Origin: Desulfosporosinus sp. FKB | GTDB taxonomy: Bacteria > Bacillota > Desulfitobacteriia > Desulfitobacteriales > Desulfitobacteriaceae | Reading direction: 5' to 3' | Assembly: GCF_002196705.1 (NCBI RefSeq) | Contig: NZ_NADJ01000040.1 | Coordinates: 558,001 to 622,000, forward strand | DNA: 64,000 nt | Part shown: piece after piece, positions 24,113 through 64,000 of the stretch | Numbering within the stretch: the first letter of the stretch is position 1 | Layout of the letters: the number at the start of each line of letters is the position of its first letter | Position numbers and translations under genes: made by a program | Notes under the pieces: model-generated | What the model was told of the DNA's origin: nothing | What the model saw: only the letters and a program-made list of their open reading frames with translations | The model's database searches: none

Positions 24113-26098
24113 TTATAGACTTAAAGTCGCAGTTGTTGTAACATTGCTGGTTGAGTCAACACCGGATATTGTAACATTAGTAAGTGATTCAGGATTAATA
24201 TTAGAGAAAAAACTTAATGTGATTAAACCACGCTTGGCTGTAATTGTTCCCACATTTGATGTAAATTGAATATTATTGGCCAGCGAAGTACTTGTAATAT
24301 CAGCGCCGTACTGATCATACACGGTATATGTTGCATAACCCACCCTTTGACTACCGTAAGGTAAGGGGATTCCCAATTTCGTTGAGTTAATTGTAATTTT
24401 ACTGACCTTTTGATCTGAATATTGACTTGAGCTTTGATTTCCAGACGTTGAATTATTAGCAGGAGCTGTATAACTTGAAGAGCTCGAAGCGCTTGTGCTG
24501 GAAGAAGTATCAAGGCTCACAACTCTGCCGGTGATTAAGTCTACAAGAGTAATAATCGGTTTATCCGTATTTGAAGAAGAGGTGTATGTTATCGTACCGA
24601 TGCCTTTGCTTGGATCTAAGGTAATTGATGAGCTTACAGAGGTAACGGCTGATAACTGAGCAGCCGGAACGGTTGACGTAATATCTTTCCCGGTTTCATC
24701 GAGCACCAGGTACTTAAAGGTTGCAGTAGTTGCCCCAACTTTTGAGAAATTGCTCAAACCAAGAATTCTATTGTTTCCAATTATGGAATCTCCATTTGAA
24801 GTTGTATTGGTCGAAGAAGAATTATAGCTCACAAGTCTGCCGGTGTTTAGGTCCACAAGGGTAATAATAATCGGCTTATCCACATCGGAAGAAGAGTTAT
24901 ACGTTATCGTACCGATACCTTTACTTGGATCTAAGATAATCGATGATTTTAGAGAAGCAACAGCAGATAATTGTGTTGCTGGAACGGTTGAGGTAATGTC
25001 TTTCCCGGTTTGATCAAGTACTTGGTACTTAAAGGTTGCAGTAGTCGTCCCAACTTTAGTAAAATCACTTAACTTAAGAGTCTCTTGATTTGATGTATTT
25101 CCATTTGCAGAATTGGACGAATTCAGATTAGTAATTACAGATTCAGGAATAATCCCTGTTCCGCCAAATACATAAACCTTACTGGCATTGGTAAACCTTT
25201 GCTGATAATAGCTTCTCGTAGTTGCCGGTGAATCAGTATTAATAAGGACTATAGGTTCAGATAGGTTAGCACAGAAGGCTGTTCCTGTTAACGCATCGGC
25301 AAAACCTTCACCTGTGGCTAAACAGATACTGTCCGCCTTGAAATCAGTATTAAACAATTGATTGACGGCTATATTTCTGGCATATTTATCAGCCCCGGAG
25401 ATCCGTTCGGCATTGGGGAACTGTTGGGCTACTTGATCGCTAATGATATCCGAATCCCCGACAATATAGGTTTTACTGATATTAAGCGTTGAAATGTAAT
25501 TCTTAACGACGTCAGGTATGGCATCATGTGGTACAAGAATAATTGGACTTTGCTTTATGGCAGCAATGGAGCCCACGGATAACGCATCGGGATAGTCCTC
25601 GCCGGTGACAACAAACAATGTTGAAGGATCTGAAGTAACTTGCTGGGCAACTTGAATCGCTGTCGCGTACCGATCAATTCCGTAAACTCTTGTTGTCTCA
25701 AGTCCCATTGTTTGAAGTTCAGATTCAACTTCTTGAGAAATTACTGCTGTTCCGCCAATAATTACTACGTTTTTCACTTGCAGGTCTAACAGGGTTTGTT
25801 TCGTAGCAGATGGCAAACTGCTAGTCGTCGTTAATAAGATAGGAGCATCATATTTCTTGGCTAAGGGGGCAGCAGACAGCGCATCAGGATAGTCTCCGCC
25901 GAAAGCCAAGATAGCATAATTAGACTGAGACCAGCCCGAACTGGCAATCTGGGCCGCTGTTTCATAACGATCAATACCTGCCAAGCGAGTAATCGTAGGC
26001 GATGAATTTGCTAATGTTGCTGCAGGAAAAACTAAACTGATAAGGGTAATCAGACTTAAGATTATACATAACCTTGAGTTTCTTATCCGAAGAGACAT
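24113..26098 (-). CDS. Surface protein with three CWB2 repeats and two Ig-like repeats
   Basis: 661 residues. A signal peptide (residues 1-30, CIILSLITLISLVFPAATLANS) is followed by three cell-wall-binding type 2 repeats (about 36-330), each opening with a R-x-x-G-x-D-x-Y-x-T-A-type motif (RLAGIDRYETA, RVYGIDRYATA, RISGADKYARN) and containing VVIIGGTAVIS-like strands. Then two copies of a ~90-residue module (LSDFTKVGTTTATFKYQVLDQTGKDI and LSNFSKVGATTATFKYLVLDETGKDI), a Ser-rich linker and a final Ig-like domain. CWB2 modules anchor proteins to secondary wall polymers, as in clostridial S-layer proteins (family knowledge). No partner is adjacent; two other CWB2 proteins are in this window. Confidence 0.92.
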   Translation of the reverse strand: MSLRIRNSRLCIILSLITLISLVFPAATLANSSPTITRLAGIDRYETAAQIASSGWSQSNYAILAFGGDYPDALSAAPLAKKYDAPILLTTTSSLPSATKQTLLDLQVKNVVIIGGTAVISQEVESELQTMGLETTRVYGIDRYATAIQVAQQVTSDPSTLFVVTGEDYPDALSVGSIAAIKQSPIILVPHDAIPDVVKNYISTLNISKTYIVGDSDIISDQVAQQFPNAERISGADKYARNIAVNQLFNTDFKADSICLATGEGFADALTGTAFCANLSEPIVLINTDSPATTRSYYQQRFTNASKVYVFGGTGIIPESVITNLNSSNSANGNTSNQETLKLSDFTKVGTTTATFKYQVLDQTGKDITSTVPATQLSAVASLKSSIILDPSKGIGTITYNSSSDVDKPIIITLVDLNTGRLVSYNSSSTNTTSNGDSIIGNNRILGLSNFSKVGATTATFKYLVLDETGKDITSTVPAAQLSAVTSVSSSITLDPSKGIGTITYTSSSNTDKPIITLVDLITGRVVSLDTSSSTSASSSSSYTAPANNSTSGNQSSSQYSDQKVSKITINSTKLGIPLPYGSQRVGYATYTVYDQYGADITSTSLANNIQFTSNVGTITAKRGLITLSFFSNINPESLTNVTISGVDSTSNVTTTATLSL

Positions 26099-46429: not shown

Positions 46430-49400
46430 TTAACTCGATGTCGTCGCTGAAGCAACGGGCGAAAACTGACTAGTAGCAGAACCGTTAACTGCCTGGATTT
46501 TATAATAATAGGTTGTATTGGCCCACAGACCGTTATTAGAATAACTATTTGTTGTTACTGTGGCAATATGGGTAAACGTACCCGAAGAGGATGTTGAGCC
46601 GAAGATATAATAACTTATCGCACCGCTTACGGCATCCCAACTAAGGTCTATTTGACCTGAGCTTACAGCGGATGCCGTAGCGAGTCTTGGTGCAGATACG
46701 GTTGTGGATACATTTGTTGCGTTTGCACCATTAATGCTGGTTAAAACGCTGTCCGGCACAACAACTGTTCCGCCGAAGACAACTTCTTTTTGAATACTGC
46801 CGGAGATGCTTCCCAGGTAATCAAGAGTTGACTGCTCCACTGGATTGCTTACCAAAAAGACCGGGGAGTTTGTCAGAGAAGCCAAAACCGAACCGGCTAG
46901 AGCATCACCATAGTTTTCACCTGTCGATATATAGCAGGTGCTAAAATCCAATTTGTCAGCAAATGCTTTAATAACACTGATATTTGTATCATACCTATCT
47001 TGACCGCTAAGTCTTGTCGGAGAGGGAAGCTGATTAAGAACACTATCACTGATAACCCCTGTGCCCCCTACAACATAAGTACTTTGTATCCCCTGCAAAT
47101 AGGTTTTCACACTTTGAGAGAGAGTATTCTTCGATGTAAGCAGAATAGGGATTCCCTTCATAGCCGCGATGGGGGCTATAGACAAAGCATCCGGGAAGGT
47201 TTCGCCGCTTGCGACGACTGCTTGACTCGTTGGCTTCATTGCCTGTGCGATTTTTACCGACGTTTCGTAACTGTCGTTTCCCGCAATTCTCGTAACTTGA
47301 ATTCCCATATCTTTAATGCTTTGCTCAACTGCCGCAGAAATAACGCCAACTCCACCTACGATAAAAACACTTTTTACTTTCATACTCGTAAGCTGGGCCT
47401 TAGTTTGTTCATTTAACGTATCCTTAGTCGTCAGCAATAAGGGTGCATTATACTCTGCAGCCAAAGGGCCGCTGCATAAAGCATCAGAAAACGTTTCCCC
47501 GCTGACAACAACAGCATAGTAAGAGGTTTTCCCTTCTTCTTTGGCGACCTCTGCGGCAGTCCCGTACATATCTTCCCCGGCCAGTCGTTGGGAGGGAATT
47601 TGTGAGGGATTCGTCGGTGCAGTGCTGCCCGACCCGGTAGTCACCGCCGAGACGATGGCCGAAAAGGGGCTTGATCCTAAACTGCCCACCGCCTGAATCT
47701 TATAATAATAGGTTGTATTCGAAGTTAGATTGGAATCCGTATAATTCAAGGTGGAAACCGTAGCAATATTTGTATAGGTGTCCGAAAGGGAGGATGCCCG
47801 GTACACATAATAGGAAGTTGCATTACTGACGGAATCCCAGGTCAAATAGATCTGACTGGTACTTAAGGCCGTCGCTGTAGGGTTGGCAGGAGCCGGCAAG
47901 GCACTATTGGTAAGCATTGTTGTGGCAGGGACGATGGCCGAGTCGGCACTGGGACCGTTGCTTCCTACCGCAACCACCTTGTAAGTATAGGTGGTGTTCG
48001 CTGCCAAGCCGGAATCAGTAAGGCTTGTACTCGTTGCCATCCCTATATTGGTATACGTCAGCGAAGGCGAAATAGCCCTGTAGACATTATAATAGGTGGC
48101 ATTGGGAACGGCACTCCAAGTCAAGTATATTTGACTGGTGCTTTGGGCAGTAGCCGTTACATTGGTCGGCGTCGGCAAGGCGCCATAAGAATATGTCGTT
48201 GTTACATTGACAATGGCCGAATCCGGGCTGGTAGCCGAACTGCCGACAGCTACGACCTTATAATAATAAGTCGTAAATGCCGAAACTGTGGTATCAGTAT
48301 AAGTCGTTGTCGTCGGTACGCCAACAATGGTGTATGTTCCGGTAAGAGAGGTGGACCTGAAAACCGAATAATACGTTGCATTAGTTACAGGTGCCCAATT
48401 CAAATAGACTTGAGTGCTCGCTGCAGCCGTCGCTGTCAGACTTGCAGGTGCAGCTAAACCGCCGCTGGCGACGGTTGTCGCATTAACAATAACAGAATCC
48501 GAACTTGGTCCCGCATTACCAACAGCCACTACTTTATAATAATAGGTTGTATTGGCCGATACGGTGGAATCATTATAATAGGCCGTTGTCGGCGAACCAA
48601 CAATAGCGTAAGTTCCATAAGGAGATGTTGACCTGTAGACATAATAAAAATTCGCACTCACAGCGCTCCAGGTCAGATAGACTTGAGTGCTGCTGACAAC
48701 CGTAGCGCTTAGATTACCGGGAGCCGCCGGGACTGTGTTAGAGACTGTCGTTGTCGCGTAAACTACGGGAGAATCTGCACTTGTCCCATAGCTGTTTCCA
48801 GCCTGAACTTTATAATAATAAGCTACGTTCGGAGTTAAGCCGGAATCAGTGTAGTAAGGGGTACTGGGTACAGCAATCGTGGAAAATGGTCCTGACGGCG
48901 AGTTAGACCTGTAAATATAATAGTTGGTTGCATAACTAACCGGATTCCAGGTCAGGCTGATTTGAGTTGTACTGGGGGCTGTAGCGATAAGGTTTGTCGG
49001 GGCTGCAGGAACGCCAGTTGAATTCATCGGTGTCGCAGAAACAACGGCAGAATATCCGCTTACAGCACCACCGCTTACAGCCTGAATCCTGTAATAATAC
49101 GTAATATTCATCGACAAACCGGTATCCGTAAAACCTGTAGTACTGGGCTGAGCAACAAGAGTATATGTACCTGAGTTCGCTGTTGTCCTGTAAACATAAT
49201 AGTAGGATGCACCACTCACAGCACTCCAAGTCAAATAAATCTGACTTGTGCTCGCTGCCGTAGCCGTTAAATTTGTCGGAGCGGACAACGTGCTGCTTGA
49301 AGTTAGAGTAACCGCACAAACTACGCTGGAATATGCGCCTCCTCCAACGATATTGGCGGCCTGAACTTTATAATAATAGGCGGTACCCGGAGACAAACCA

Positions 49401-49660
49401 GTATCTGTATAATTCGGAGATGTTGTCGTACCGACAATCGAGTAATTCCCGGAGGAAGAGGTTCCCCGGTAAACATAATAGGCTGTCGTACTGCCTACCG
49501 AACTCCAGGTTAAGGAAATTTGACTGCTGCTAAGGGTGGTAGCAGTAAGACCTGTCGGCGCTGGGGGAGTCGTTAAAGCCAAGGCTTTTTGGGGAAAGAA
49601 TAACGTAGTGATTAATAAACACAACACTAACGCCACAAACTTGAAATTACGTTGTTTCAT
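46430..49660 (-). CDS. Large surface protein with FN3 domains and CWB2 repeats
   Basis: 1076 residues. A signal peptide (FKFVALVLCLLITTLFFPQKALA) is followed by seven fibronectin type III domains of about 92 residues (each APTNLTAT..STSQIYLTWSAV..YYVYR..TYYYKVQAVG), then three CWB2 repeats (about 710-985; RLAGEDMYGTA, RIAGNDSYETS, RLSGQDRYDTN) and one last FN3 domain. The FN3 units are highly similar to each other, suggesting recent expansion. Likely exported and bound to the wall by the CWB2 modules, with FN3 domains reaching outward or binding carbohydrate/protein. 35 bases separate it from the fumarase alpha gene downstream. Confidence 0.94.
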   Translation of the reverse strand: MKQRNFKFVALVLCLLITTLFFPQKALALTTPPAPTGLTATTLSSSQISLTWSSVGSTTAYYVYRGTSSSGNYSIVGTTTSPNYTDTGLSPGTAYYYKVQAANIVGGGAYSSVVCAVTLTSSSTLSAPTNLTATAASTSQIYLTWSAVSGASYYYVYRTTANSGTYTLVAQPSTTGFTDTGLSMNITYYYRIQAVSGGAVSGYSAVVSATPMNSTGVPAAPTNLIATAPSTTQISLTWNPVSYATNYYIYRSNSPSGPFSTIAVPSTPYYTDSGLTPNVAYYYKVQAGNSYGTSADSPVVYATTTVSNTVPAAPGNLSATVVSSTQVYLTWSAVSANFYYVYRSTSPYGTYAIVGSPTTAYYNDSTVSANTTYYYKVVAVGNAGPSSDSVIVNATTVASGGLAAPASLTATAAASTQVYLNWAPVTNATYYSVFRSTSLTGTYTIVGVPTTTTYTDTTVSAFTTYYYKVVAVGSSATSPDSAIVNVTTTYSYGALPTPTNVTATAQSTSQIYLTWSAVPNATYYNVYRAISPSLTYTNIGMATSTSLTDSGLAANTTYTYKVVAVGSNGPSADSAIVPATTMLTNSALPAPANPTATALSTSQIYLTWDSVSNATSYYVYRASSLSDTYTNIATVSTLNYTDSNLTSNTTYYYKIQAVGSLGSSPFSAIVSAVTTGSGSTAPTNPSQIPSQRLAGEDMYGTAAEVAKEEGKTSYYAVVVSGETFSDALCSGPLAAEYNAPLLLTTKDTLNEQTKAQLTSMKVKSVFIVGGVGVISAAVEQSIKDMGIQVTRIAGNDSYETSVKIAQAMKPTSQAVVASGETFPDALSIAPIAAMKGIPILLTSKNTLSQSVKTYLQGIQSTYVVGGTGVISDSVLNQLPSPTRLSGQDRYDTNISVIKAFADKLDFSTCYISTGENYGDALAGSVLASLTNSPVFLVSNPVEQSTLDYLGSISGSIQKEVVFGGTVVVPDSVLTSINGANATNVSTTVSAPRLATASAVSSGQIDLSWDAVSGAISYYIFGSTSSSGTFTHIATVTTNSYSNNGLWANTTYYYKIQAVNGSATSQFSPVASATTSS

Positions 49661-52289: not shown

Positions 52290-52375
52290 CGCTGAAGAGC
52301 TCCCGCGCAAGCAAGTGAGTTGGCCTCGGAATACCAATGAGCGATATGGGCGCAGCTCCCCGACCCGAAGGATCT
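52290..52375 (+). repeat. Diverged partial copy A of structured repeat
   Basis: GCTCCCGCGCAAGCAAGTGAG..GGCCTCGGAAT..TGAGCGATATGGGCGCAGCTCCCCGACCCGAA matches the 3' half of copies B and C with about a quarter of the positions changed. The 5' half is not recognisable. Confidence 0.6.
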
Positions 52376-52422
52376 ATATTTATCCCTCGATGGCGCCATC
52401 AGGTCGACTTTAGCGTCGACTT

Positions 52423-52478
52423 AAAAAAGAGAAGACCAGACCCCTTACTATTAAATCAATAAGGAAATCCAGTCTTCA
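52423..52478 (-). terminator. Terminator of the glutamate mutase-methylaspartase operon
   Basis: On the minus strand GAAGACTGGATTTCCTTA pairs with TAAGGGGTCTGGTCTTC and is followed by TCTTTTTTAAG. It lies about 270 bases beyond the mal stop, downstream of repeat copy B. A small palindrome GTCGAC..GTCGAC (52403-52420) follows. Confidence 0.7.
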
Positions 52479-52515
52479 TCCTAAGATTGTTAACCCAAAA
52501 ACACTATAGACCTAA

Positions 52516-52710
52516 GAGGAAGGGAGCTTCACCCACAAGAGTGAACTCATTGCATGGAGAGGCGGTTAGGCTCACAAAGTTTGCGTAGGAGAGCGGAGCC
52601 GTGGTTCACATCAGGTATTACCCTGAGGTTCGGCAGAGCTCCCACGCAAACGAGTGAGCGAGCCTCGGAATGCTGAGTGAACGGTGTGGGCGAAGCTCCC
52701 TGACCCGAAC
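52516..52710 (+). repeat. Structured ~190-nt repeat, copy B
   Basis: Near-identical to 61693-61884. The ends GGGAGCTTC.CCCAC and GTGGGCGAAGCTCCC form inverted arms; nested inside are ACTCA/TGAGT, GGCTCAC/GTGAG.GAGCC and GTTTGCG/CGCAAAC, so the whole folds as one long, bulged hairpin with a loop domain around 52588-52650. No reading frame is conserved between the copies. It directly follows mal in transcription sense. Could be a non-autonomous mobile element or a structured RNA. Confidence 0.8.
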
Positions 52711-59393: not shown

Positions 59394-59776
59394 TTACCCA
59401 CCTCTTAACCAAGTTTCAGCCCTTTGGCTTAGTCCTTATTGGCATGGTCAATTAGTCCAATTTTCTTACGCTATTATATTCGGCATTCCTCCAAGAATCC
59501 CTTCTCGTTTCCTAGTATTTTATGAAAATTAATTTATAATTCGCTTACCATTAAAAAGGAGTGGAAAATATAAACTGAACAATGAACAATTATTGATTCA
59601 CTGCTGTAAGGCTACTGTATCGGAAGTTTCAGAGACTAAACCGTGAGGGGGATGGCTAATTGCCTATCCCCCCAGTTTTTATCCGATCAATTTTTCCCGT
59701 TAAGTTGTTTGGAATAACAAATCTTCTCCTATAGCATAGCTAAATTGTGAAGTGTTTAAGATTGACAAACCAAATA
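59394..59776. other. Intergenic region with one terminator
   Basis: Contains the putative GntR promoter region and, at about 59650-59690, a terminator GGGGGATGGC..GCCTATCCCCC followed by AGTTTTT on the plus strand. A possible ribosome-binding sequence AAAAAGGAGTGG at 59554 is followed only by stops and a 23-codon open stretch without a normal start. This may be a decayed small gene or an RNA ending at the terminator. Confidence 0.5.
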
Positions 59777-60775
59777 CTACATAAAGGTTATATTCGATAC
59801 GTACTTATTAAGGCTATATTCACTACAAATATCATGATTTTTTCGAAGATCGGAAAAATACTGTTGAATAGCTTCTTTAGATATAATGTTTGTACAGCGT
59901 TCGTTTTGATCGATTCCCGTTCTTGCATCTACCCAAGGTTTTTCGATATGAGTTAGCCTTTCGAGATATTTAGCATCATACTTACCATAAACAGACCACA
60001 CTAAATCAAGGACAGTAAGTTCATCTTTTTCAAACACGCCGGGATCGAAAGAAGAAACCTTTGGTATATTCGAAGAACCATATTCTTTAAAATAAATATA
60101 TAAATCAGGGATAACGGGTCCATGAACCCAGGCTTGAAAATCTTCTTCGAACAAGGATTTATGAAAGGTTAAGGACCACGCCTGGGCATAATATACCAAC
60201 TTTTGCAATTTTAGCGGTGTAATGGATTCCCCCGCTTCCGGTTCTATTTTATTAAGAAAATACTCCGCTACACTAACAAGCTTATTTTTGTGTGAACTCT
60301 TTTGTCCGTGATCGAGAAGTTCCATAAGTCTAGCATATAGTTTTCGTTTAGAAACAGGCGTGAGCGCACCTTTGTTTGTATGATATAAGTCAAGCATATT
60401 TTGGGAATTCATCAATTTACGAAGAGTCTCACTATACTCCCTTGTTGGCGTTAAACCATTAAGATATCTAATAATAGTCGTTTCTCCCCAACCCAATAAT
60501 GAGGAAAGCGGTTTTCGTCCTATGTTGTATTTGATTAGAAGATTTTCGATTTCATTAACTTGGATTAACCCTTTTAATTCCCTATATATCTTATTGGCAG
60601 ACTTCACATTTTCGTCACTTAATTCAGAAATATAAATTTCCTCTCCACAGTCATTACAATAAGCGATTTTCGCAAGATACGAGAAAACAACATCCTTTAT
60701 TTCAGTATCAATCATTAATTCTTTAATGCTATACTCAACATCAGCATCGCAGTGATAGCAATACTCTCTCATCAT
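59777..60775 (-). CDS. Panacea-domain antitoxin with zinc ribbon and HTH
   Basis: 332 residues from ATG 60775 (GGGAGG six bases upstream). Residues 1-45 form an MqsA/YgiT-like zinc ribbon (CYHCD..CNDCGEEI); about 75-125 an XRE-type helix-turn-helix (YNIGRKPLSSLLGWGETTIIRYLNGLTPTREYSETL); and 160-300 a Panacea/DUF4065 domain (VSVAEYFLNK..ITPLKLQKLVYYAQAWSLTF..DFQAWVHGPVIPDLYIYFKEYG). Panacea proteins act as antitoxin chaperones for many unrelated toxins (family knowledge). The upstream gene encodes a small MqsR-like protein, so the two are a probable toxin-antitoxin pair with toxin first, 100 bases apart. Confidence 0.88.
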   Translation of the reverse strand: MMREYCYHCDADVEYSIKELMIDTEIKDVVFSYLAKIAYCNDCGEEIYISELSDENVKSANKIYRELKGLIQVNEIENLLIKYNIGRKPLSSLLGWGETTIIRYLNGLTPTREYSETLRKLMNSQNMLDLYHTNKGALTPVSKRKLYARLMELLDHGQKSSHKNKLVSVAEYFLNKIEPEAGESITPLKLQKLVYYAQAWSLTFHKSLFEEDFQAWVHGPVIPDLYIYFKEYGSSNIPKVSSFDPGVFEKDELTVLDLVWSVYGKYDAKYLERLTHIEKPWVDARTGIDQNERCTNIISKEAIQQYFSDLRKNHDICSEYSLNKYVSNITFM

Positions 60776-60876
60776 CTTAAACCTCCCACTATCCAAAAAT
60801 TAATAACTCATATTAATCCCATAGCCCAAAATCGCTGAAAGATCAGCGACTCGCACCGATCACTTATATTGATATC

Positions 60877-61191
60877 TCAAAGGAAACTCGTTCGATGAAA
60901 CGATAAACAAACGACTCTTCCCTGTAATTTAAGTTTTATGTAAATTTCGGTTTCGTTGTTAATGAGCGGTGGTTTAAGAACCTTGCCGAAAAGCCATACC
61001 TCTCCTTTGCGATTAGGATCTCGATCTGTATCCGTATAAGAGTAATCTTTAAGCGTCAAAGTTAATAGTACTTCGCAAATAATATCATTAGTGAGTCCGT
61101 TCTCAATCATGAAATTACCCGTCTTATCCTCACTATTAGTTCTTTTTACAATATATAATCCTTTAGGGGACTCCCCTAAAATAGAAAACAC
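60877..61191 (-). CDS. Putative MqsR-like mRNA interferase toxin
   Basis: 104 residues from GTG 61191. The pattern MIENGLTNDIICEVLLTLTLKDYSYTDTDRDPNRKGEVWLFGKVLKPPLINNETEIYIKLKL..VVCLSFHRTSF follows the helix then beta-sheet order of MqsR-type RelE-fold toxins, ending in the typical V-(x)-SFH strand. Known members cleave mRNA. AGGAGGGG lies at 61243-61250, 50 bases upstream of GTG, and the frame stays open back to there (IRVAFESEVEGFLSR), so the protein may start earlier at a non-standard codon. It is directly upstream of the antitoxin. Assignment is by sequence pattern only. Confidence 0.65.
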   Translation of the reverse strand: MFSILGESPKGLYIVKRTNSEDKTGNFMIENGLTNDIICEVLLTLTLKDYSYTDTDRDPNRKGEVWLFGKVLKPPLINNETEIYIKLKLQGRVVCLSFHRTSFL

Positions 61192-61272
61192 CCTTGAAAG
61201 AAAGCCTTCGACTTCTGATTCAAAAGCTACTCTGATTGCAATCCCCTCCTATTAATCTTCTTCTATGATACC

Positions 61273-61322
61273 ATTATATAGTAATTGGGGAGGGCTGGCA
61301 ATAAAACAGTATCAATTGATAC
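61273..61322 (-). promoter_or_regulatory. Promoter and operator of the toxin-antitoxin genes
   Basis: On the minus strand TTGCCA (61296-61301), 17 bp, TATAAT (61273-61278). A perfect 14-bp palindrome GTATCAATTGATAC (61309-61322) overlaps the region upstream of the -35 box, and a further GGTATC half-site lies at 61267-61272 beyond the -10. This suits autoregulation by the HTH antitoxin (inference). Confidence 0.7.
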
Positions 61323-61530
61323 CATATTTTTATTTTACCAGAATCGTGTAGAATTATTCAACTGTCAATTTGTACAGGTATTTAGAGATATTACCTAAAG
61401 CTTTAAGTATCTTAATGTAATGTTTGACATCTCCGCTAATACCTATGACTATATCTTCGAAAGTTTTTCACTACTCTCAAATTCTCTGTTATACAAAAAT
61501 CACTGATTTCCATTAGGCACAAAAAATAAG

Positions 61531-61567
61531 GGCGGACCGATTCTTGATACAAAGAATCGGTCCGTCC
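61531..61567 (-). terminator. Strong terminator hairpin
   Basis: CGGACCGATTCTT pairs with AAGAATCGGTCCG (13 bp or more); on the minus strand TTATTTTTTGTG follows. It would end transcription coming from the CWB2 gene at 61956. The rest of 61192-61690 is the toxin-antitoxin promoter and AT-rich sequence without a gene. Confidence 0.75.
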
Positions 61568-61692
61568 AAATTTAGTATGATCAGCCGAATGTAAAGATAA
61601 CCTGATGCAGCAACCGGCATTAGACCACTCTAACATCCCTCAGCATCTGATGGCCCAAATAACTACATGACATACCCTGAAAAAAAGGCCAC

Positions 61693-61884
61693 AGAGGAAG
61701 GGAGCTTCGCCCACAAGAGTGAACTCATTGCATGGAGAGGCGGTAAGGCTCACAAAGTTTGCGTAGGAGAGCGGAGCCGTGGTTCAAATCAGGTACTACC
61801 CTGAGGTTCGGTGCAGCTCCCGCGCAAACGAGTGAGCGAGCCTCGGAATGCTGAGTGAACGGTGTGGGTGAAGCTGCCTGACCC
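61693..61884 (+). repeat. Structured ~190-nt repeat, copy C
   Basis: Differs from copy B (52516-52710) at only about ten positions over 190. Changes include GCTTCA/GCTTCG in the left arm and GGGC/GGGT in the right arm, and GGTTCAC/GGTTCAA in the loop domain. Same plus-strand orientation as copy B. It lies between the terminator at 61531 and the CWB2 gene, again downstream of a minus-strand gene. Confidence 0.8.
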
Positions 61885-61955
61885 AGAAGATCGCTTGTTA
61901 TCCTTCCGATACCGCCGCATTAGCCACATGGGTATCCAGTTGTACAAATCTCGGC

Positions 61956-63575
61956 CTAATGCGCCAACAAATCCTTAAGCTCCGATTCCAAATCCAACGA
62001 AACACTGCTGTTAGTTCCAACAACTGACGATTGCTTAATATAACCCACATTATATAACAGGAAGTAATTCAAACTCGAAGGAACAGTATATTGCGGAACC
62101 ATAGCAACAAACCCACCTTGTTTAGCAGCTAAAGCCGCTGTTACCAAAGCATCCGCCTTGGGATTTCCCGAGCTTACATCACCTTGGCGTACAAGTCCGG
62201 AAGCGAAATAGAGAGGGGTTTGAGGCTTCGAGGTGTTAAAAAGATTTTGGAAGATGATATTTTGCGTGTCATATTGATCATAGCCGCCCCAACGCTTAAC
62301 GTGATAGTTGGAGCCTAATTGATTCTGCACAGAATTTCCAATAACCGCCGTGCCTCCCAGCAAAACGACGTTACTTGCCTTAAGGTCTGCCAAAGCCTTG
62401 GCCGTGGAAGAGGGTACGGAATCCTTTTCCGTGAGCAGAATCGGGCTTCCTTGTTCAGCGGCAAAAGCGCTGATGGCGATTGCATCGGGAATCGCGGCAT
62501 AATTAGCGATATAAACGGTCTGGGTGGGATCAATCCCCACAGTCGCAGAGATCTGGGCCGCAGTATCATATGCCTGCTGGCCGGCAATTCGGGTGACGGT
62601 AAACTCACCGTTCAAACTGTCCTGGATCCCTTGGGAGACTGCAACAGTCCCGCCGACAATATAGATATTTTTTGCTCCCAGATTGCGAATCTCCGTTAAC
62701 GTGCGATCATCCAATTGAGAAGAACCAGTCATAAGAATCGGTGCATCAAGCTTTTTCGAAAGGGGTGCAGCGGCAAGAGCATCCGAAAATTGGTCGTCTC
62801 TGGTTAAAATGACATTTAGAGAACCGGAATTCCAGCCGCTTTGTGCCACACTGATGGCCAAGGAGACATTGTCCCCGGAATTCCCTCCAATACGGGAGCT
62901 TTGCGTGTAAGCCGGAAGAACCGGTATGGTACCGATAATATGCCCGGAATAGAGAATATTGACATTCCCGAATTGGGTCGGTGTCATATTGAAGGTAAAG
63001 GTTCCATCGCTAAGAGTTGTATAGGAGACTGAGGAAGCGCCGACTAATGAGCCGTCAATCGTTCCGGATTTACGCATCAAAGGATTACCGTTGGTATCCG
63101 TTACTTTGACCCTGATCGTATTATCCGTATTAATATACATAGGATCGGTGACGATAGTCTTGGCATCTAAAACTGTGATCGTTCCTGCGGCATAGGCTGT
63201 TCCTATGGCACCTTGACGAATCACTAACTGATAATCACCGGCTGTATCGAGCGTTACATTGCTAACTGTATAATCTCCGCTGTTTCCGGAGACTTGATAA
63301 ATTTTCGAAACTCCGCTTGAGTCTGTGATCGTTGCACTGGCAACTGAGCCGGAGAAAGGATTAGAGTTATTATCCCAAAGCTGAACATTAATGTCACCTG
63401 TTTCTCCGGCAATCAGTGTGGAATCAGCACTGGTCGCAAAACTGAGATATGCCAGCCAAGTACTGTAATCGTCGGTGGTACTTGCAGCAGATGCTATCCC
63501 CGGAATCATCCCGATCAGCAAAATCACAATGGCCAGTACACTCATCACCACTTGGGCCCGTTTACTTTTCCTCAC
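61956..63575 (-). CDS. CWB2 surface protein with Ig-like domain
   Basis: 539 residues from GTG 63575. The chosen start has AAGGGG nine bases upstream and yields a classical signal peptide (VRKSKRAQVVMSVLAIVILL..GIASA); the frame can be extended to ATG 63677, which overlaps the permease stop and adds another hydrophobic segment. After the signal come two Ig-like modules (about 35-220; LIAGETGDINVQLWDNNSNPFSG and TDPMYINTDNTIRVKVTDTNG), then three CWB2 repeats (RIGGNSGDNVSLAISVAQSGW, RIAGQQAYDTAAQISA, RWGGYDQYDTQNIIF). Likely wall-bound. It lies next to a MacB-like permease, possibly in one operon. Confidence 0.9.
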   Translation of the reverse strand: MRKSKRAQVVMSVLAIVILLIGMIPGIASAASTTDDYSTWLAYLSFATSADSTLIAGETGDINVQLWDNNSNPFSGSVASATITDSSGVSKIYQVSGNSGDYTVSNVTLDTAGDYQLVIRQGAIGTAYAAGTITVLDAKTIVTDPMYINTDNTIRVKVTDTNGNPLMRKSGTIDGSLVGASSVSYTTLSDGTFTFNMTPTQFGNVNILYSGHIIGTIPVLPAYTQSSRIGGNSGDNVSLAISVAQSGWNSGSLNVILTRDDQFSDALAAAPLSKKLDAPILMTGSSQLDDRTLTEIRNLGAKNIYIVGGTVAVSQGIQDSLNGEFTVTRIAGQQAYDTAAQISATVGIDPTQTVYIANYAAIPDAIAISAFAAEQGSPILLTEKDSVPSSTAKALADLKASNVVLLGGTAVIGNSVQNQLGSNYHVKRWGGYDQYDTQNIIFQNLFNTSKPQTPLYFASGLVRQGDVSSGNPKADALVTAALAAKQGGFVAMVPQYTVPSSLNYFLLYNVGYIKQSSVVGTNSSVSLDLESELKDLLAH

Positions 63576-63669
63576 GTATTTTTTCCCCTTTCCAACTTTC
63601 CGATAACTAAAAATTGCACAATCGAAGCAAATACCTGAAACAAGCAGCAAAACCAAAAGAATTGATAGA

Positions 63670-64000
63670 TTACTCATACCTTAAAGCGTCAATTGGATCC
63701 ATCGAAGCCGCTTTTCGAGCCGGAAAAACCCCGAAGATTATGCCGATGGCTGCAGAGAAACCGAAAGCGACCAACACAGACGTCGGGGAAATGCTGGTAC
63801 TCATTTTTAAGGCTTTCCCAGCCAGGGTTGATCCTCCAAAGCCGAGAACAATACCTATTCCGCCTCCCAGAATACTAAGTACGATGGCTTCAATGAGAAA
63901 TTGCATCATGATATCGAGACCTTTAGCCCCGATGGCTTTACGGATTCCAATCTCCCGCGTTCGTTCGGTAACCGAGACAAGCATGATATTCATGATGCCA
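63670..64000 (-). CDS. MacB/FtsX-like ABC transporter permease, C-terminal part
   Basis: The visible 110 residues run off the right edge. [45 protein letters not shown] and [24 protein letters not shown] are the classical C-terminal signature of MacB-type permeases: R-E-I-G-I-R-K-A-x-G coupling helix, three membrane helices and the terminal P-A-x-x-A-x-x-x-P-x-x-A-L-R-Y-E. These transporters drive mechanotransmission or peptide export with a partner ATPase, which should lie beyond base 64000. The CWB2 gene follows closely. Confidence 0.95.

Follow-up and report, generated by a model that had tools for sequence, protein, structure and literature searches.

The 64,000-nucleotide stretch of the Desulfosporosinus sp. 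FKB genome analyzed here (contig NZ_NADJ01000040.1, positions 558,001 to 622,000; hereafter referred to as the window) very probably carries an MqsR:PanA type II toxin-antitoxin (TA) module, located on an acquired island of approximately 2.1 kb and with a toxin output that is nil or very low. The combination of an MqsR toxin with a zinc-ribbon/HTH/Panacea antitoxin is known, and pairs of this kind from Bacillus fungorum and Lactobacillus rossiae were tested before (PMC10440598). The window pair is an added member of this published group, and our results support the initial annotation as right in kind, the TA system itself being already published. The features of the locus, in window coordinates, are:

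59543..61671, no strand: low-GC island with the whole module inside, missing from genomes G008 and G009
59777..60772, minus strand: PanA antitoxin CDS (331 aa from ATG 60772) with an MqsA-like zinc ribbon, HTH and Panacea
59933..60208, minus strand: Panacea (SocA/DUF4065) domain (PF13274 match)
60389..60556 (boundaries approximate), minus strand: HTH domain (TIGR03830 and PF15731 matches)
60569..60772, minus strand: zinc-binding domain with two CxxC pairs, C5/C8 and C39/C42 (TIGR03830)
60860..60901, minus strand: out-of-frame remnant of the conserved toxin tail, VSSNEFPLRYQYK
60877..61236, minus strand: MqsR-fold toxin ORF (119 aa, read from ATC at 61236)
61245..61250, minus strand: perfect Shine-Dalgarno sequence AGGAGG, 8 nt ahead of ATC 61236
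61273..61301, minus strand: sigma-70-type promoter TTGCCA-17-TATAAT (11/12, consensus match only)
61309..61322, no strand: candidate operator palindrome GTATCAATTGATAC, family-wide footprint

Both ORFs were found on the minus strand in the toxin-first order that had been claimed, with the small toxin ORF (60877–61236) located 5' of the 331-aa antitoxin ORF (59777–60772). The toxin matched PF15723 (MqsR) with 24 bits and an E-value of 5e-5, slightly below the cut-off of 26.2. A PDB comparison of its AlphaFold model (mean pLDDT 93) gave as first match the MqsR chain of the E. coli MqsR:MqsA structure (3HI2_D; probability 1.00, E-value 0.0026, TM-scores 0.51/0.64), other structural matches being well behind. 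The initial annotation had proposed an MqsR-like toxin and named a RelE/MqsR fold as the check, and structure prediction gave the MqsR fold. The motif YSYTD is present in a clade consisting of the window toxin and those of genomes G023 and G194, whereas most homologs have Y-x-R/K-G-P, which was counted against the module. Residue mapping by eye puts this segment close to a basic residue in the active site of E. coli MqsR. Tyrosine Y99, part of YIK, is found in every one of the 15 aligned homologs and is a candidate counterpart of the catalytic Y97 of B. fungorum MqsR, the substitution of which abolishes toxicity (PMC10440598). A comparison of the window toxin with the G023 copies revealed purifying selection (dN/dS 0.07–0.14), although with dS near saturation this value informs little on recent time; for the antitoxin, the same comparison gave a dN/dS of 0.09, again with dS near saturation.

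All three modules claimed for the antitoxin are present. The Panacea domain was recognized by PF13274 with 67.9 bits (cut-off 25.7; residues 191–282), and this protein is its sole match in the genome, while the zinc ribbon and HTH were recognized by the MqsA-type zinc-ribbon/HTH family TIGR03830 (55 bits, cut-off 61.8; residues 7–129) and by PF15731 MqsA (24.2 bits, cut-off 30; residues 37–115). The relatives begin at the residue aligned with 60772, and the in-frame ATG at 60775 is also a possible start. PADLOC matched neither the toxin nor the antitoxin protein, and a PDB sequence search returned nothing informative for either of them. The scores of PF15723, PF15731 and TIGR03830, all just under the curated cut-offs, were counted against the module and would suit an unrelated regulator with a small protein upstream, forming no TA pair; this is highly improbable, given that MqsR is the top fold match, that the pairing is kept across many families of the phylum and that a homologous architecture was tested in B. 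fungorum.

The B. fungorum PanA, partnered with MqsR(D2), likewise consists of a zinc-binding domain, an HTH and Panacea; its zinc-binding domain alone neutralizes MqsR while Panacea does not, and Panacea was proposed as a sensor (PMC10440598). This comparison covers the domain architecture as published. By analogy with these tested relatives, the zinc-binding domain of the window antitoxin is predicted to be the toxin-neutralizing part, which would keep the MqsR-like protein, a putative mRNA interferase, inactive, and Panacea would most likely sense a trigger rather than neutralize. The validated L. rossiae PanA was described as HTH-containing (PMC10440598). Other Panacea (PanA/SocA/DUF4065) antitoxins, for which 90 MqsR-like partners were catalogued earlier, share the C-terminal Panacea domain, but standalone PanA neutralizes via Panacea, unlike the zinc-ribbon mode expected here (PMC8832971). 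The E. coli MqsR:MqsA system (3HI2) has in common with the window the MqsR fold, the MqsA-type zinc ribbon and HTH, the toxin-first order and a promoter palindrome, whereas its MqsA is devoid of Panacea and its toxin is only approximately 15% identical in the structural alignment. The window operator sequence also differs from the E. coli operator.

To approximate the complex, a one-chain relative consisting of the toxin and a zinc ribbon (locus L064) was modelled; each domain was predicted with confidence, but the pTM of 0.58 is too low to define the interface between toxin and zinc ribbon. A PDB search with this model gave a Salmonella TA chain (7VD7_A) with a probability of 0.98 but an E-value of 0.07. 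The full-length alignment A4 was dropped as folding input, as its toxin rows were misaligned. Single long frames holding the toxin match were observed at L064 positions 433–2022 (G248; 529 aa), G198:C1:46589-46966 (496 aa) and L126 (G474; 498 aa), and these are possible natural TA fusions; the L064 frame also spans the antitoxin in full and contains an internal ATG preceded by a ribosome-binding site.

A single promoter would drive the toxin-first operon. The 14-bp palindrome reported at this promoter is present, but its position had to be corrected to 61309–61322, i.e. 7 nt upstream of the -35 element. It occurs at one place only in the 5.1-Mb genome and was absent from 100 shuffles of the window, with one mismatch allowed. 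The same 14-mer lies ahead of the toxin in G194 (L058) and in G195 (L106). Of 50 homologous upstream regions, 24 match the family pattern, [C/G]TATCA-NN-TGATA[C/G], in at least 11 of its 12 positions, compared with 0.04 expected from mononucleotide shuffles, a less stringent null than dinucleotide shuffles. As several of these loci are close relatives of one another, they do not amount to 50 independent tests, but relatedness falls far short of explaining the excess; some promoters, e.g. that of L058, have two sites. The palindrome, earlier offered as a pointer to autoregulation, thus appears to be a conserved family operator, and this conservation across promoters supports autoregulation more than the single palindrome did. 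As judged from this footprinting, the antitoxin HTH would be the operator-binding part and the operon would be repressed at 61309–61322.

A toxin profile search gave matches in 55 of 398 genomes sampled across the phylum. Among approximately 50 homologous toxin loci, a zinc-ribbon/HTH antitoxin is encoded downstream in all but one, in most cases with a full Panacea-type C-terminus; the sole exception is L109, where an antitoxin was not detected in the sequence examined. Three partner antitoxins (L062 in G370, L059 in G371 and L092 in G304) are composed of the zinc ribbon and HTH with a short C-terminus replacing Panacea. Within the order to which the window belongs, close toxin relatives were found in G023 only (two copies, 65% identical), and none was found in GTDB contigs, viral contigs, phages or plasmids.

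The island, approximately 2.1 kb long, carries both TA genes together with their promoter and terminator-like hairpins; its GC content is 0.357 (35.7%), compared with 0.465–0.491 in the flanking genes. In the close relatives G008 and G009, the genes on either side of the island are directly contiguous and the segment 59543–61671 is missing; the neighbouring GntR gene is 96% identical in G008. The simplest reading is a recent acquisition of the island. One island border is adjoined by an interspersed repeat (61683–61884, element within 61590–61940), which occurs at 14 genomic places including the window copy (74–100% identity) and twice in G008, has nearby copies at approximately 52298–52706 of the window and belongs to no Rfam family; an Rfam search over 58–64 kb and 61340–61960 gave no match. 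The same 64-kb stretch encodes large secreted proteins with cell-wall-binding domain 2-like repeats at 24113–26098, 46430–49660 and 61956–63677, the domain being Pfam-confirmed for the last of these only.

Both ends of the window toxin gene are anomalous, which distinguishes this copy from the B. fungorum and L. rossiae pairs. Its conserved N-terminus contains no ATG, GTG or TTG before GTG 61191. The latter, the start chosen by the ORF finder, was rejected, as it would remove most of helix 1 and has no well-placed Shine-Dalgarno sequence by inspection. The position aligned with the window ATC is ATG in both G023 copies, the nearest relatives. At the other end, the main frame terminates at HRTSFL and VSSNEFPLRYQYK goes on in another frame; in intact relatives the tail reads SFHPSEYDVRYPYAGD or SFHPAEYPLRYPYRG, and the motif SFH...YPY/F, kept in most homologs, is broken by this frame change. 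Activity of the window toxin copy cannot be assumed with such a start and tail, and the gene may be off or yield only trace amounts of protein, i.e. nothing if it is decaying, or very little if weak AUC initiation follows the strong Shine-Dalgarno sequence. The spacer between toxin and antitoxin holds, at 60829–60856, a hairpin with a perfect stem of 7 bp (TCGCTGA-TCTT-TCAGCGA) and TTTT behind it, which by eye was not seen in the G023 relatives.

Two anomalies within one short gene could point to an assembly or base-calling error at the start and/or tail of an otherwise normal gene, but this is improbable, as the assembly was reported as 100% complete with 2.5% contamination, and the adjoining antitoxin and flanking genes are clean. 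Roughly even chances are given to the toxin being a fresh pseudogene with a lost start and a frameshifted tail, the antitoxin surviving as an autorepressor or as a shield against incoming MqsR modules. The ATG in the nearest relatives and the persistence of the missing tail in another frame are consistent with decay, as is the toxin-antitoxin gap of 104 nt, compared with some 27 nt among the relatives. Stop codons or frameshifts also interrupt other toxins of the family (e.g. those of G347, G365, G212, G136, G423 and G470), several of which still have a long antitoxin frame downstream (L060/L075 in G347, L103 in G365, L107 in G212 and L119 in G470); as such breakage is recurrent, decay is the leading reading of the window copy. 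On the other hand, 118 core codons between the two anomalies are free of stops and frameshifts, the Shine-Dalgarno sequence is perfect and well spaced, and the tail is also missing or different in otherwise intact homologs (the G256 clade, G096 and G365, in which the L103 toxin has a stop ahead of the tail).

The other reading, which has less than an even chance, is that of a live toxin with a deliberately weak non-canonical start (AUC here, AUU or AUA elsewhere), limiting the toxin relative to the antitoxin. A heuristic start assignment for 44 toxins with an intact N-terminus gave 23 ATG, 9 GTG, 6 TTG and 6 with none of these, while for antitoxins it gave ATG in 40 of 49. Six species of two genera, belonging to another family than the window (G256, G466, G468, G469, G280 and G471; L114–L118 and L120), have intact toxins with AUU at the start position (AUA in G471) behind a conserved purine-rich site, and their dN/dS of 0.09–0.35, where dS was measurable, indicates purifying selection. 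Since these toxins are conserved in six species, weak AUC translation of the window toxin is kept as a reading. A canonical start is wholly missing in five of the six; G468 has in-frame upstream ATGs, which speak against a weak start but lack a Shine-Dalgarno sequence and are not common to the other five. The window and this clade are, however, far apart, so that coincidence is possible, and the C-tail frameshift of the window toxin points to decay.

Precedents for IF3-limited starts are the GTC of sigR and the ATT/ATC of infC; in the Streptomyces sigR-rsrA operon the GTC start, acting via IF3, keeps the sigR product below its downstream inhibitor (PMC5472188). The resemblance is an analogy only: in both cases an upstream gene with a non-canonical start precedes a downstream inhibitor, which is in excess in sigR-rsrA and would be here, but sigR-rsrA is not a TA system, its start is GTC and not ATC, and its regulation was shown experimentally. 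It is a rather doubtful extension that MqsR-PanA toxins were repeatedly placed under AUU, AUC or AUA behind good Shine-Dalgarno sequences, with IF3 fidelity setting the toxin:antitoxin ratio and the window as the AUC example.

What the window pair adds to the published MqsR:PanA group is a family-wide candidate operator, which makes autoregulation directly testable, a clean example of an island with its empty site, and the non-canonical-start lead. Restraint of toxin translation by non-canonical starts would be a control layer unreported for TA operons in the literature searched, a limited negative; if it operates, a drop in initiation fidelity could release the MqsR-PanA toxin.
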